Source: Loxodes magnus
Taxonomy: Eukaryota > Ciliophora > Karyorelictea > Loxodida > Loxodidae
Length of the DNA: 64,000 nucleotides
Assembly (NCBI GenBank): GCA_946699065.1
Contig: CAMPDV010000018.1
Span: 372,001-436,000, forward strand
Direction: 5' to 3'
Each line of letters opens with the position of its first letter. The first letter of the stretch is position 1. Below the pieces are notes generated by a model. It saw only the letters and a list, made by a program, of their open reading frames with translations, made no database searches and was not told the origin of the DNA. The translations under genes were made by a program, and so were the position numbers. Below are positions 1-64,000 of this stretch, piece after piece.

Positions 1-675
1 GCTATTTGCTGCATATATGCGAAAGGCCTCATTGAGATATTCCTTCGGTTGGAGAAGGAATGGATTTTGGTAGCTGAAGTAATTCAATGTGGTGCATTAT
101 TTTAACTATAACTACAGTCGGCTATGGAGATTATTTCCCTAGCACAAATGGAGGTAGAACAGTAATTTTTGTAACTTGCTTGTGGGGAATAATTTTGGTA
201 TCTCTTATGGTTGTTAGTGTAGCAAATACATTAGAAATGGAAACTAGTGAATTAAGGAGTTACTTTATCATTAGAAGAATAGATTTTAGACAAAAAATGG
301 GCATAAAAGCTGCTAGCCTCATTTCCTTAGCAGCGAAAATAAAGCTCGTAAATAAAAAAGGAGATTAAGAGTAAGTAAAGCATTTTGTTGGTAAATTCAT
401 TAAGGCAAAATCAGAATTCAAAAAGTCTAAAACGTAACTTTTAATACAGAGAACTTCGTTAACTGTATACTTAAGGAGATTCTATTGAAGCAAATGGATA
501 AGATCTAAGTGCTGTGAGAAATGAAATGTGAATAATGAATAAAAATATTCATTATCAAATAGATGATGTAATGGCATCTCTTCGTGCAATAGTAGGGAAG
601 GACATGGAAAACATTAAAGGTAATTAATTAGAAAACACATCACATCTGCAATCATAATAAAACAACTTTTATTGA
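1..675 (+). CDS. Voltage/cyclic-nucleotide or SK-type K+ channel, 3' part
   Basis: C-terminal part of a six-TM-type potassium channel cut by the window edge. Reading from base 3 gives the pore helix followed by the selectivity filter TTVGYGDYFP (about 108-137), then an S6 helix (WGIILVSLMVVSVANTLEM) and a basic, coiled-coil-like cytosolic tail (repeated K/R, then DDVMASLRAIV). The filter is diagnostic of K+ selectivity. In-frame TGA codons near 33, 75 and 530 are read as Trp, and TAA/TAG as Gln. A 16-nt intron at 434-449 restores the frame for the tail, and the first TGA after it (673-675) is the likely stop. No voltage sensor or CNBD is visible, since the N-terminus is missing and the tail is short. 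The short coiled-coil tail recalls the calmodulin-binding tail of SK channels, but subfamily is inference. Confidence 0.85.
434..449 (+). other. 16-nt intron in K+ channel
   Basis: GTAACTTTTAATACAG. It starts GT, ends AG, and its removal moves the frame from base 3 into the frame that stays coding-like up to the TGA at 673. Without splicing the tail reads into a frame with several TGA and no charged pattern. Confidence 0.7.
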
Positions 676-1736
676 TTTAAATTTTGCGAAAGCTTTTCCT
701 TCTTACTAGTCTGCTTGGAATATAAAAAATCCTTACCCCTTAGATACCTTTATTAGCACTACAAGCAGCAAGTAATCTCTTTTAATAAGCAGTAATAAAT
801 TATAACCTCTTTTTATATAAATTAGCTATTTATAGCAATTACTTAGTTTATCTTTTTGCCTAATTAACTGATTAGGTAATTTTATCTTATTAATTCGAAC
901 AAATATAAAGGCATAAGTAATTAGCCATTCTTCAATGAGAGATAATTTAATTATAGTATACTTTGAGTAAATATTTATCCTTTTAAAAAATAAGCCTATC
1001 ATCTATATTCTTTTGTGAGATAATTTCCTTAGTTTTCAAATATAGTTCTTTATAAGTAGCAAATAAAAGGAAACAATAATAATAGTTTAAAGCTTTTTAA
1101 ATACTTCGTTAAAATGCTAAAACTTATATCTAAGTATAATATTATTGGGCTATTAAAAAAGGGATAAGAGAATTTACTTAATGCATTAAAATTATACCTG
1201 CTAGTTAATAATCTGATTTTCTAATTTAAGGTACTATATTCTAAGTTTGCTTACTGTTTAGTTATTCTTTCTATGGTTCTTTTCTATTTTAAATTAACTA
1301 TAATGTACTTAAAATCTAGCAAGATACTTTATAATAACTATATCCAACATGTCTTCTGAGCTTATTTATAGATCAATAGCTACGTTAATTTTTTAGCTTT
1401 AGGCTATAATAGATTAGTTAGCTAGTCTATTTCATAAAATGCTAGAAACTTACTTTAGAAATACAAAAGCGACCATGCTGATTAAAACTACAAAGCTTTT
1501 AGTTGAAAGGATGTAAGAGTTTATAGTTACAAAGTATGATAACTAAAAGGATTAAAGAGCTATTGCTTAAATATTGCAGCTTTAAGGTATTATACTAATT
1601 ATTAAACCATTATTCTAGAACTCTTTTCATATTAGTACTAGTAACAGAGCTGTAGTAGATTAATATAGGAAGAAAGAATCATCATATCCAAATGAAGCAA
1701 TAGACTAAATATTACTAAGCTAAGAGGAGTTCACTA
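676..1736. other. AT-rich intergenic stretch
   Basis: About 1 kb of very AT-rich DNA with dense TAA, TAG and TGA on both strands. I see no frame with charged or conserved residues, no tRNA-like B box and no tandem repeat. Confidence 0.6.
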
Positions 1737-2474
1737 ATGTCTCTTATATTTGGAGTAAAGTTTAAAATAAAGCTATCTTTTAGATGCTTAATTCTAGTTC
1801 TTTTTACAAAAATGTGACCATCTAATATATGAAAGGGATTAAATCAAATTTAGTAGGTTGTAAGTGCAGGCATTAATGCTGCTAGAGATCCTCAAAGAGC
1901 AGACCTAGTTTCTTTGGTTGGAGAACTTACTGCGAGTGGAAGTTTAGATTTTGTTTAAAAGAAGATGTTGGAAAATCCTACAGGGAAACTTATACTTAGT
2001 GAGAGACCCAGAGTTAGAAATATAAACTTAGAAAATTTGTTAAAGCTTCCTAATTATACCTTTGGTAATTAATACGCTCTATGAATGAGTAGTCGTAATT
2101 TTTCTCCTGAAGAAAGACCAATAATAAATAAGATAGAAGATGAAGAGAAAGCTTATATTTTCTAAAGATATAAAGAAATACACGACTTTCTACATGTAAT
2201 CTTAGATCTTGGTAGTACTGAACCAGATGAAATTCTTGTAAAGTGGTTTGAACTGATATAGTTCAAGTTTCCGGTTGCAGCTTTAAGTGTTATGTTCTAT
2301 AGAATGAATTAAAAGTAATAAAAATACGTTGACGAGAGAAAAAAATGGATAATGAGAATGGCTAACCAGTCTTAATTTATGATGAATGTATATTTCGAAA
2401 AAAATTGGGATAAGGATATTTCACAATTCAAAAAGCAGCTAGGAATTATACCCCAAGAAGATTTTCATTAATGA
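1737..2474 (+). CDS. COQ4: Ubiquinone biosynthesis protein COQ4
   Basis: Mitochondrial matrix-side protein of the coenzyme Q synthesis complex; recent work on the family ascribes C1 decarboxylation/hydroxylation of the ring to it. The single unspliced frame shows the family order: [22 protein letters not shown] N-block, ERPRV block, FGNQYA, then the metal motif HDxxHx(11)E with His149, Asp150, His153 and Glu165 (2181 onward), and the EILVKWFE helix. Length 245 residues is close to the usual ~265. The start at 1737 gives an N-terminus with Lys/Arg and no acids, like a mitochondrial presequence; a second ATG at 1812 is possible. TGA codons at 1815, 1830 and in YALWMSS are Trp; stop is TGA 2472-2474. 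No operon context: neighbours are unrelated. Confidence 0.9.
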
Positions 2475-3812
2475 TTTGCTTCCATCCAACTTTTATTTTA
2501 ATCTGAAATAAAGTTAGATTATTCTTCTCTAATTCTATTCTAATTCAGCGCTTAGTTATAAATAAGAAAGTAAAGGTAGTATTTTAACATAAAGAAAGGG
2601 TATTAACTTACTTTATGCAATAGAGTAAATATTATTCAAACATAAATCAGTAGGTTATGCTAGCAATCTGTTTACTGTAAATCTACGAACTGAAAAGAGA
2701 GTTTTGGTTGAATTAACTTAATATAAAGAACTCTTTAAAAAGCTTAAATTTAAATATACTAAAGATAGAGAATTTATAGAAGATATCCTTAGAGATAATT
2801 AGTATCTCAAATGTTAGTTATAGTTAACTCTTATGATTTAATTGGAACAATTAAAAATTATTTTATTTATATGAATTCAAATAAAAACTTACTTATTCTT
2901 TATTGCTTTTAAATTAGGAAATACATTATAAAAATCAGAAAGAAAACAGGAAATTATTTAACTAAAAACTTCGACAGACGATAAAAGGAAGAAGATAAAG
3001 CACCTAAGAATAAACGTCTAAGATATTAAAATAGTAGAATTAAAGTGAATGTGAGGAAATATTAACTTTAGAAGGTTTTAGTATTAACTTATCATTTAAT
3101 AAAATCAAAAGAGTATTATTACCAATAAAAGCCCAATCTTCAAGTAAATCAGTCATATAAAGAGTAATTATCTCATATATATTAAAAGAAATTAAGTTAC
3201 TGTAATTTATTAAATTAAATGCAGGTATTGTAATAGGAACATTTAATTGTTAATGCATAAAGCAATTTTCCAAAGGATTTGTAATATAGATATAATGATT
3301 AATTTTAAATCTTAAATGAAAATGATTTACAGAATAAGGAGTATAAATCCTAAGCATATTTAGTTGTATAGATAAAGAAATATTATATAAGACTAGAGTG
3401 TTAGGTTTAACTAATAAGAGAAGACTTATCTTTCTACTTAAGCGATATTTAATCAACCTATTAAAGCAATAAAATATTACAAAATGAAAATCTTTAAATC
3501 ATAAAGTGACCCTGTAAAAAAGCTTAACATGATACTTAATCTTAGCAATAAACAGATTATTATAAAAGACTTTTTAAGTTTGTAAGAACTACATTAATAA
3601 ATCTAACAAGAAACAAATCTAAATTATATAAAATGCATCTATTAGTTAAAAGATGAAGAAATGGGAAGAATGGAAGCAGAAAGATAAATAGGTAGAATTT
3701 GATTATAATAAATAAAAAATAGTAATAAAAGTAAAAGTTATTTAATTAAGGTAAATAAAGTTGGTAATTCATTATTTATTTATTCTCCTCCATATTTTGA
3801 GTTTATATAAAA
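2475..3812. other. Intergenic, with weak open frames
   Basis: AT-rich spacer. Between about 2540 and 2874 two overlapping plus-strand frames are open and one (ending at TGA 2872-2874) carries runs such as NLRTEKRVLVEL, but has no ATG and no family resemblance. It may be a decayed gene or chance. Nothing supportable in 2900-3800. Confidence 0.35.
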
Positions 3813-63258: not shown

Positions 63259-63543
63259 ATGCGTAAGTAATGATGCCTAAAATATCTAGTAACAATCATT
63301 AGTAAAATAAACTATTTTTAATAGATATAACTAAATAATCCAACAATTCCTGATATAAAGGTAATTAGCTTTTCCTTTAATGATAAGAAATAAGGCAAAG
63401 GAACTAAGCAATTTATCAAAGATACTTTAGATAAGACATTTAGAGCAATCCAGTATAAAGTTATTATATAAAAGAAAATAGAAAGGAATGAAGATTTAAG
63501 AATAGTTTTTATTTATAATATATTAAACTAAGATTAGATTTGA
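63259..63543 (+). CDS. Possible small orphan protein (weak)
   Basis: 94 codons from ATG to TGA (63541-63543) reading KQGKGTKQFIKDTLDKTFRA and a Lys/Glu-rich end. A 27-nt GT..AG segment (63361-63387) could be an intron without frame change. A second plus frame from 63265 looks equally protein-like, which shows how weak such evidence is in this DNA. Confidence 0.22.
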
Positions 63544-63637
63544 TTAGAACATAAAGCAATAGAAACTTTTTGATATATTATTATATTTAGTTAAAGGTAG
63601 ATTAAAGGATTTTAAACTAAAATATTATAATATAAAA

Positions 63638-64000
63638 ATGCAGTGCCAAAGTTGCTATAGTTAATTCGATCTAAATTTAAAAGTGCCTTATAAATATTTA
63701 TGCGGCCACATAGCTTGCTAGGAATGTATCAATAAGAATTAATAAGGATGATGCTAAGCTTGCAGATAACCTAAAGCAATTTAAGGTTAGTGCTTTGATA
63801 TAATTAATTAACTAAAATAGATGTAAGCTACATAGGAAGCATAAAAGGCTTATGGCAACCCTGGATTAAATTATCCTTAATATTAAAATAACGAGCAATT
63901 AAATGCTTAGTTACAGCAAACTTTTCCTAGTGGATAGATTTTTAATAACCCCCAGTCCCAGTAGTTATCTTATCAAATTTGTAAAAAGCATAGCAATTTA
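63638..64000 (+). CDS. RING-type zinc-finger protein, 5' part
   Basis: 121 codons to the window edge. The RING reads CQSCYSQFDLN, YLCGHIACQECINK, GWCQAC, spacing C..C-x~17-C-x-H-x2-C-x2-C-x~9-C-x2-C, that is C3HC4 (TGA in GWCQAC is Trp). Then follows a Gln/Asn/Pro-rich stretch, mostly TAA/TAG Gln, and at the very end YQICKKHSNL, a likely B-box start (C..H). The order RING then B-box points to a TRIM-like ligase as at 6707. Start is the first ATG, after ATATAAAA; there are only two residues before the first Cys. Confidence 0.8.

Follow-up and report, generated by a model that had tools for sequence, protein, structure and literature searches.

Ciliate codes in which a standard stop codon can be sense or stop were described in Parduczia and Condylostoma, and the end of the transcript was proposed to mark the true stops (Swart 2016, PMC4967479; this and the other papers are cited from excerpts of their text unless stated otherwise). 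The same paper named a UGA codon triality that includes selenocysteine (Sec), and noted a selenocysteine insertion sequence (SECIS) element close to the Sec codon of thioredoxin reductase (TrxR). For Loxodes magnus, the published macronuclear assembly comprises 706 Mbp; most introns do not exceed 25 bp, and translation follows the karyorelict code, NCBI table 27 (PMC11441545). Here we analyze a 64,000-nucleotide stretch of L. magnus DNA, referred to as the window (contig CAMPDV010000018.1, positions 372,001 to 436,000; 25.1% GC), together with homologous loci in the rest of the genome. We put the probability at roughly 0.87 that the window is macronuclear DNA read under the context-dependent karyorelict code, by a mechanism of the kind outlined below. 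For this species and its relatives, both the code and the problem of how its stops are marked have already been published (PMC11441545, PMC4967479), so confirming the code adds little in itself.

The codon meanings, the main stop, the depletion of TAA, the tRNA genes, the eRF1 residues and the Sec site discussed here were all read from DNA sequence. Twenty-seven chosen stretches of the window were scanned with Pfam, TAA and TAG being read as Gln and TGA as Trp, and domains above the curated cut-off were found at 11 places: ion channel, Coq4, P450, RING/B-box/Kelch, Myb, CCCH, a minus-strand Kelch, zf-TRAF, GYF, PP2C and MFS. Ten Pfam-matched stretches, one of which (SPRY) is below its cut-off, span 1397 codons, with 52 TAA, 19 TAG and 9 TGA in frame alongside 16 CAA, 7 CAG and 16 TGG. 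A coding model whose training set consisted of Pfam-matched stretches delimited 25 coding segments in the window; two other versions of the gene finder were dropped, a self-trained one that called everything coding and a first discriminative one that found few segments. The genome searched was the L. magnus assembly of 705,730,643 bases in 7843 contigs, and loci elsewhere in it are designated by L numbers (L001 and so on). Codon meanings were scored by swapping one codon for various residues, or for a blank (X), and rescoring with Pfam, a test that does not presuppose its answer.

UAA and UAG appear to encode glutamine. In the Coq4 gene of the window, TAA and TAG read together as Gln gave 209.1 bits, ahead of K (205.2), R (203.3), H (202.4), E (201.3), S (199.0), X (197.1), L (196.2) and Y (192.6). 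Four further genes were scored codon by codon: histone H3 (L063), actin (L021), eRF1 (L010) and SepSecS (L044). Gln was the best reading of TAG in all four, compared with E and K and, in three of them, S as well; it was the best reading of TAA in three, all except SepSecS. Single-gene scores are noisy. Summed over the four genes, the scores are Q 1250.0, K 1243.4 and E 1234.8 bits for TAA, and Q 1242.4, K 1228.0 and E 1226.9 bits for TAG. When the GPx gene L042 was fully masked and aligned to GPX4-like chains, three of its nine TAA/TAG codons fell on Gln, including the Gln of the FPCNQF motif, and the remaining six on N, N, D, A, A and K.

Internal UGA, by the same tests, appears to encode tryptophan. 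Trp outscored the blank in six of seven genes (Coq4, P450, Myb, SepSecS and the actins L021 and L022), PP2C being the exception. The gain was 6.0 bits in Coq4, 7.4 in P450, 6.0 in SepSecS and 5.0 in actin L021, and in actin L022 Trp was the highest among nine residues and X. The Myb gene has its internal TGA at a Trp column of the Myb repeat, and there W is top with 94.1 bits, followed by Y 90.2, X 85.2, C 84.6 and R 83.4. Both TGA codons of the masked GPx L042 align with Trp, and the Trp of the WNF motif is written TGA in two of the four GPx genes and TGG in the other two. Conserved paralogue columns that face a TGA hold Trp in five of seven cases for actin and in two of two for GPx.

No tRNA gene was detected by ARAGORN within the 64-kb window. 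Genome-wide, an anticodon-arm pattern for UUA, CUA, UCA and CCA gave 377 matches and its reversed form none; among the 100 matches listed, 21 were UUA, 29 CUA and 50 CCA. (An earlier pattern had given four matches against five in its reversed control, with no tRNA in the four loci.) ARAGORN, run on six stretches, returned tRNAs with UUA and CUA anticodons as well as tRNA-Trp(CCA), and we infer that the UUA and CUA tRNAs carry Gln. A tandem array of 9.2 kb on contig C67 (482200-491400; L099) contains 48 tRNA-Trp(CCA) genes at a spacing of 182-195 bp, 47 of them identical. All 48 have A27.C43 at the top of the anticodon stem, leaving a stem of 4 bp, and two dispersed copies on contig C110 have the normal T27-A43 pair. 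A 4-bp tRNA-Trp has already been cited for Loxodes (PMC13092985), and for other species reporter assays have been published in which tRNA-Trp with such a stem reads UGA (PMC13092985, PMC12153298); in the excerpts of PMC13092985 we found no mention of the Loxodes array.

Two copies of eRF1 (L010 and L011) are present; L009, the top match to the first domain of eRF1, turned out to be Pelota. Compared with the human protein, the NIKS and GTS motifs are kept, and Ala, Ala and Phe occupy the columns of Ser70, Glu55 and Tyr125, in a numbering that we anchor on human NIKS, taken to be residues 61-64. The genome thus combines a broken 27-43 pair in the array copies, no match to the one UCA anticodon-arm motif searched and a replaced Ser70, the set of features by which the 4-bp-stem tRNA-Trp system is recognized. 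In Blastocrithidia, the change of eRF1 Ser70 to Gly together with a 4-bp stem raises UGA readthrough (PMC12153298), and Ala at this column may, by analogy, act similarly in Loxodes.

UGA appears to be the main stop as well. We restricted the survey of gene ends to proteins in which homology fixes the C-terminus. TGA follows all 17 printed C-termini of actins and their relatives (28 loci were given, of which 11 printed none), many of these loci being near-identical copies, and it closes all four GPx genes, both eRF1 copies and all five TrxR loci. Among histone-family loci, 28 of 30 end at TGA and two at TAA, with several of these ends being the first in-frame TGA past the conserved part; one of the 31 histone matches had no locus. 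The Ras-family sample consists of 40 tails from the 50 top-ranked of 150 listed domain places, ten places having been excluded by eye where the domain match ends early. A C-terminal prenylation motif is present in 34 of the 40 tails (the other six are uninformative), and it is followed by TGA in 30, by TAA in two (L120 and L124) and by TAG-TGA in two (L100 and L101); 11 of the 30 TGA-ended tails were counted after a frame shift that we interpret as a short intron. Every one of the 21 internal TGAs in 51 homology-anchored genes lies at least 39 codons from the stop, the Sec codons of four TrxR genes being left out.

These results agree with much of the original prediction, made from the letters of the window alone. 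It had placed TAA and TAG at Gln positions and TGA at Trp positions in more than 15 recognizable genes; most of the score tests place them likewise, and 11 places among the 27 stretches scanned have Pfam support under that reading; it had chosen table 27, whose Gln, Trp and UGA-stop assignments are all recovered here; and it had described internal TGAs as lying well upstream of the stop.

Within the window itself, an in-frame TGA lies 0-5 codons beyond the end of 12 of the 25 coding segments, and the coding model disfavors TGA, which biases these segment ends. The genes and segments of the window are as follows.

3..434, plus strand: 3' part of an ion-channel gene, with in-frame TAA and TGA (Pfam Ion_trans_2, 52.5 bits)
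1833..2474, plus strand: 3' part of the Coq4 gene, with in-frame TGA 2082-2084, TAA 2163-2165 and TAG 2259-2261 (Pfam Coq4, 209.1 bits)
2469-2471 and 2472-2474, plus strand: TAA and TGA at the end of the Coq4 gene, an end read from the sequence
3945..5324, plus strand: P450-like gene in which TAA, TAG and TGA all occur in frame, nearest TGA past the segment at 5340-5342 (Pfam p450, 128 bits; X-masked PDB alignment)
6701..8782, plus strand: RING/B-box/Kelch gene, stop TGA 8780-8782 (Kelch and B-box exceed the Pfam cut-off, RING does not)
12474..13241, plus strand: Myb gene, Trp-column TGA 12708-12710, stop TGA 13239-13241
21893..22534, minus strand: CCCH zinc-finger gene (Pfam zf-CCCH), with the TGA at 21893-21895, 12 codons past the segment, as candidate stop
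28963..29367, plus strand: coding segment with no known domain, candidate stop TGA 29365-29367
34294..37179, minus strand: long coding segment that matches no Pfam family, followed by 92 codons free of in-frame TGA, with a TAA near its end
38066..39349, minus strand: coding segment, possibly a second Kelch stretch, stop TGA 38066-38068
40490..41854, minus strand: Kelch gene with in-frame stop codons (Pfam Kelch, 58.8 bits, best stretch 40661-41200)
44862..45179, minus strand: short coding segment that matches no Pfam family and is followed by 48 codons free of in-frame TGA
50832..52085, minus strand: RING/TRAF-finger gene, stop TGA 50832-50834 (zf-TRAF, 28.8 bits; SPRY and RING below cut-off)
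52593..54557, plus strand: GYF-domain gene rich in TAA and TAG; the 72 codons after the coding signal lack an in-frame TGA, and TAA occurs at 54543 and 54567
54935..55213, plus strand: coding segment whose phosphatase-inhibitor match is below threshold, with no in-frame TGA within 120 codons past its end
55500..56957, minus strand: PP2C gene, stop TGA 55500-55502 just past the domain (Pfam PP2C; X-masked PDB alignment)
55617-55619, minus strand: an example of the further in-frame TGAs upstream in the PP2C gene, where residue scores favor neither Q nor W
59594..61537, plus strand: MFS transporter gene, stop TGA 61535-61537 (Pfam MFS_2 and MFS_1)

The P450-like protein has Asn at the position of the heme-ligand Cys of the aligned chain, and may therefore be degenerate or non-heme. 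Outside the window, actin gave about forty high-scoring, near-identical matches on a few contigs (C266, C707, C711 and others), and a tRNA-His gene lies near four of eight excised actin loci (L001-L008).

TAA stands at the expected end of four genes, and on sequence grounds two of these cases, L067 and L120, appear convincing. L067, an H3 variant, reads ATG TAA TAA TAA at the place where the paralogue L065 has GTG TGA; the nearest in-frame TGA is 504 nucleotides beyond the TAA, and no GT-AG span of 15-35 nucleotides, the range covered by our intron check, crosses the first TAA. In L120, a member of the Ras family, the CaaX box CLIF is followed directly by TAA, again with no intron span of 15-35 nucleotides over it. 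The other two are weaker. L064, of the histone family, likewise lacks a span of that length, and a TGA follows its TAA five codons on; in L124, of the Ras family, possible introns of 25-28 nucleotides over the TAA would reach a TGA nine codons later.

These genes bear on the alternative that table 27 holds strictly, with UGA alone terminating and the TAA-ended genes being spliced, mispredicted or pseudogenes. The possible introns of L124 and the nearby TGA of L064 are what it would expect, and possible spans were also seen in 7 of 13 TGA-ended control tails. It accounts poorly for L067, with its long TGA-free run, and for L120, with its intact CaaX box, and it would leave unexplained a depletion of TAA near gene ends that is both published (PMC11441545) and seen in our own sample. 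We therefore consider a strict table 27 unlikely, though deserving of some weight.

The depletion sample comprised the 51 homology-anchored genes and 32 Ras-family tails, Sec codons excluded. The last ten codons hold no TGA, 3 TAA and 9 TAG among 826 codons, compared with 10 TGA, 92 TAA and 42 TAG among 3647 codons lying 161-400 codons upstream (Fisher test: TAA, 1.1e-5; TAG, 1.0; TGA, 0.22). A control against synonymous codons gave the same picture, with TAA:CAA of 3:13 near the end versus 92:45 inside (0.00025) and TAG:CAG of 9:4 versus 42:13 (0.72). These p values are too optimistic because the genes are related, and the mix of genes also differs between the bins. Depletion before stops of UGA and UAA, and not of UAG, has been published for L. 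magnus (PMC11441545). Together, the TAA-ended genes and the depletion of TAA but not TAG suggest that UAA probably behaves like a rare second stop.

The same TAA ends and the same depletion could be taken to favor the Condylostoma code (table 28), in which each of the three codons has a sense meaning within genes and may also close one. The Ras paralogues L100 and L101, which end CCK-TAG-TGA where others end CCK-TGA, might be counted on that side too. However, TAG is undepleted near ends; it occurs two and three codons ahead of the TGA in L121 and L119, respectively; no gene end that we examined is at a TAG lacking a TGA directly behind it; and TGA closes 30 of 34 informative Ras tails and 28 of 30 histone-family loci. 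The Condylostoma code is thus improbable here. The original prediction had rejected it and held that no gene could be ended convincingly at TAA or TAG: for TAG we likewise saw no convincing case among the gene ends examined, the L100 and L101 tails being ambiguous, whereas for TAA the statement appears too strong, L067 and L120 being the best candidates for rare TAA ends. On our reading, eRF1 would recognize UGA efficiently, UAA poorly and UAG barely. The abstract of Seah 2022 reportedly mentions a small minority of suspected UAA stops.

Several observations weigh against the code as we read it. Among the scores for TAA and TAG, TAA in SepSecS favors Lys (K 375.0, E 369.4, Q 368.0); PP2C in the window puts Glu 2.1 bits over Gln (E 105.4, Q 103.3, K 101.9, X 97.4); the two main domains of TrxR do not separate the three residues (Q 272.6, K 273.1, E 274.2); and P450 is a near-tie (Q 128.0, K 127.7, E 127.5). 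Reading TGA as Trp in PP2C scores 1.6 bits under X. A count of the residues in paralogue columns, with the codons masked, gave Trp for TGA, as had been anticipated, but placed S, K and E ahead of Gln for TAA and TAG; the latter count is uninformative because much of the Gln in the paralogues is itself encoded by TAA or TAG and such columns were dropped. Of the decoders that had been proposed, tRNAs with UUA and CUA anticodons exist, to which ARAGORN gives the labels Stop and Pyl, but tRNA-Trp(UCA) had no match genome-wide to a single anticodon-arm motif, which a divergent or intron-bearing gene would escape. The absence of TGA from the last ten codons (0/826 versus 10/3647) is not significant in this sample. 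Finally, 4 of the 25 window segments, 34294-37179 (minus), 44862-45179 (minus), 52593-54557 (plus) and 54935-55213 (plus), have no in-frame TGA within 40 codons past their end; these are candidates for UAA stops, late introns or poorly placed segment ends. A long intron could also explain the end of 34294..37179, and for the GYF gene the candidate stops are a TAA or a TGA beyond an intron.

A further meaning of UGA, missed by the original prediction of Trp and stop, is suggested by TrxR. Five TrxR loci (L049, L050, L051, L052 and L053), representing four distinct sequences, end Gly-Cys-TGA-Gly-TGA-x-x-TGA. Aligned to mouse TrxR2 with its TGAs masked, L049 has two TGAs on Trp, a third on the Sec site (which is Cys in the mouse entry used) and a fourth after the last Gly. 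The two Trp TGAs are found in all four distinct sequences, with more in L053. Downstream in L049, 45 nucleotides from the first base of its Sec codon, begins a stem that has an A-rich bulge and whose core strands are GUGA and NGAG; in L049, L050, L051 and L053 the sequences of these SECIS-like stems differ and the pairing, judged by inspection and folding, is kept. The genome also contains three tRNA-Sec genes with a UCA anticodon above the Rfam cut-off and a SepSecS gene (L044), so that tRNA-Sec(UCA), SepSecS and a TrxR with the GCUG end, the marks of a selenoprotein system, occur together. This set appears to be new for the species to our knowledge, and the term 'selenocysteine' was not found in the text of the Loxodes genome paper (PMC11441545). 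A further 49 sub-threshold tRNA-Sec matches have nearly all the same score, and the five that we checked (L015-L019) are tRNA-Ser(UGA). As for other families, GPx was rejected as a selenoprotein candidate, all four genes being Cys forms, and the Rdx family gave two weak matches in which no Sec site was resolved.

It could be argued that the first TGA of the GC-TGA-G-TGA end is Trp or stop, and not Sec. Rfam returned no SECIS match in the four of five TrxR loci searched, so that the SECIS call rests on inspection, and the folds have modest z scores of -1.05 to -2.31. Set against this, the end matches the animal GCUG end exactly, the tRNA-Sec(UCA) genes and SepSecS are present, a GUGA...NGAG stem recurs by inspection in four distinct sequences, and Sec in TrxR has been published for a related karyorelict (PMC4967479). 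We give a non-Sec reading very little chance.

The predicted lower stem of L049 ends 91 nucleotides past the end of the stop codon, which would imply a 3' untranslated region of at least 91 nucleotides, compared with a published mean of 53 and median of 41 nucleotides for L. magnus (PMC11441545), so closeness to the poly(A) tail alone may not mark the TrxR stop. In all four distinct sequences an in-frame TGA follows three codons past the stop, with intervening codons that differ. A TGA at this distance was found in 6 of the 51 homology-anchored genes, namely the four TrxR sequences and both eRF1 copies (L010 and L011), and in none of the 32 Ras-family tails. Our tentative interpretation, held at somewhat less than even odds, is that UGA means Trp (twice), Sec and stop in one TrxR frame, that closeness to poly(A) alone may not mark stops, that the TGA three codons on serves as a backup, and that UAA is a rare, ambiguous stop. 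The TrxR set makes the stop-marking question testable within one mRNA, and its four distinct sequences, which need a 3' untranslated region long enough for a SECIS, may be natural exceptions to a rule that a UGA near poly(A) is a stop. The published Loxodes gene finder bars in-frame UGA within 21 nucleotides of the stop and models UGA as Trp or stop only (PMC11441545); we therefore predict that it cuts the TrxR genes at the Sec codon.

That the open frames are artefacts, either pseudogenes or frames open only once stops are removed, is practically untenable: the window has 165 open reading frames of at least 150 amino acids, and at 25% GC long frames do open on both strands without TAA and TAG stops, yet eleven window genes have Pfam support, the score tests favor Q and W in most genes tried, and conserved columns are matched in GPx (catalytic Gln and Trp) and TrxR (Trp).

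The mechanism that we favor for the context-dependent code borrows from published work on Condylostoma and Blastocrithidia as to which tRNA reads UGA, how weak eRF1 is and what part poly(A) plays. An eRF1 whose decoding pocket is altered (by Ala at the column of human Ser70 and by other changes) would compete weakly in the middle of a message. Close to the 3' end, with the poly(A) tail near, release would be favored, so that UGA, and rarely UAA, terminates; UAG would be nearly invisible to eRF1. Release at UGA and UAA near the 3' end would in turn have led selection to thin these two codons, and not UAG, from the last codons of genes. In TrxR messages, the SECIS-like stem and tRNA-Sec(UCA) would give UGA a further meaning one codon before the stop UGA.

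Of the known systems, the closest is the karyorelict code itself (table 27), as described for Parduczia sp., karyorelict transcriptomes and L. magnus (PMC4967479, PMC11441545), which shares UAA and UAG as Gln, UGA as Trp or stop and the depletion of UAA; the candidate UAA stops in four genes set our data apart from it. In the code of Condylostoma magnum (table 28; PMC4967479), position likewise decides whether a given codon is read as sense or as stop. Unlike L. magnus, where no UAG stop is convincing and UAA stops are rare, all three codons stop there. Blastocrithidia (PMC12153298) shares a tRNA-Trp(CCA) with a 4-bp stem for UGA, a change at eRF1 Ser70, a tandem UAA after a UAA stop (found in one gene here) and the use of UGA for both Trp and Sec in one protein, SelTryp in that organism. 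It differs in that UAA and UAG encode Glu and only UAA stops, whereas in Loxodes they encode Gln and UGA is the main stop; in having Gly at Ser70 rather than Ala; and in that UGA would have three meanings in Loxodes TrxR. The UGA triality of C. magnum and Parduczia (PMC4967479) likewise involves a TrxR Sec codon near the C-terminus with a SECIS close behind; to this the Loxodes TrxR adds four distinct sequences, each with two Trp UGAs, a Sec UGA and a stop UGA, and an extra UGA at a fixed distance. With the known 4-bp-stem tRNA-Trp, finally, Loxodes shares the broken top pair of the anticodon stem, here in a 48-copy tandem array that exists beside dispersed copies with a 5-bp stem.

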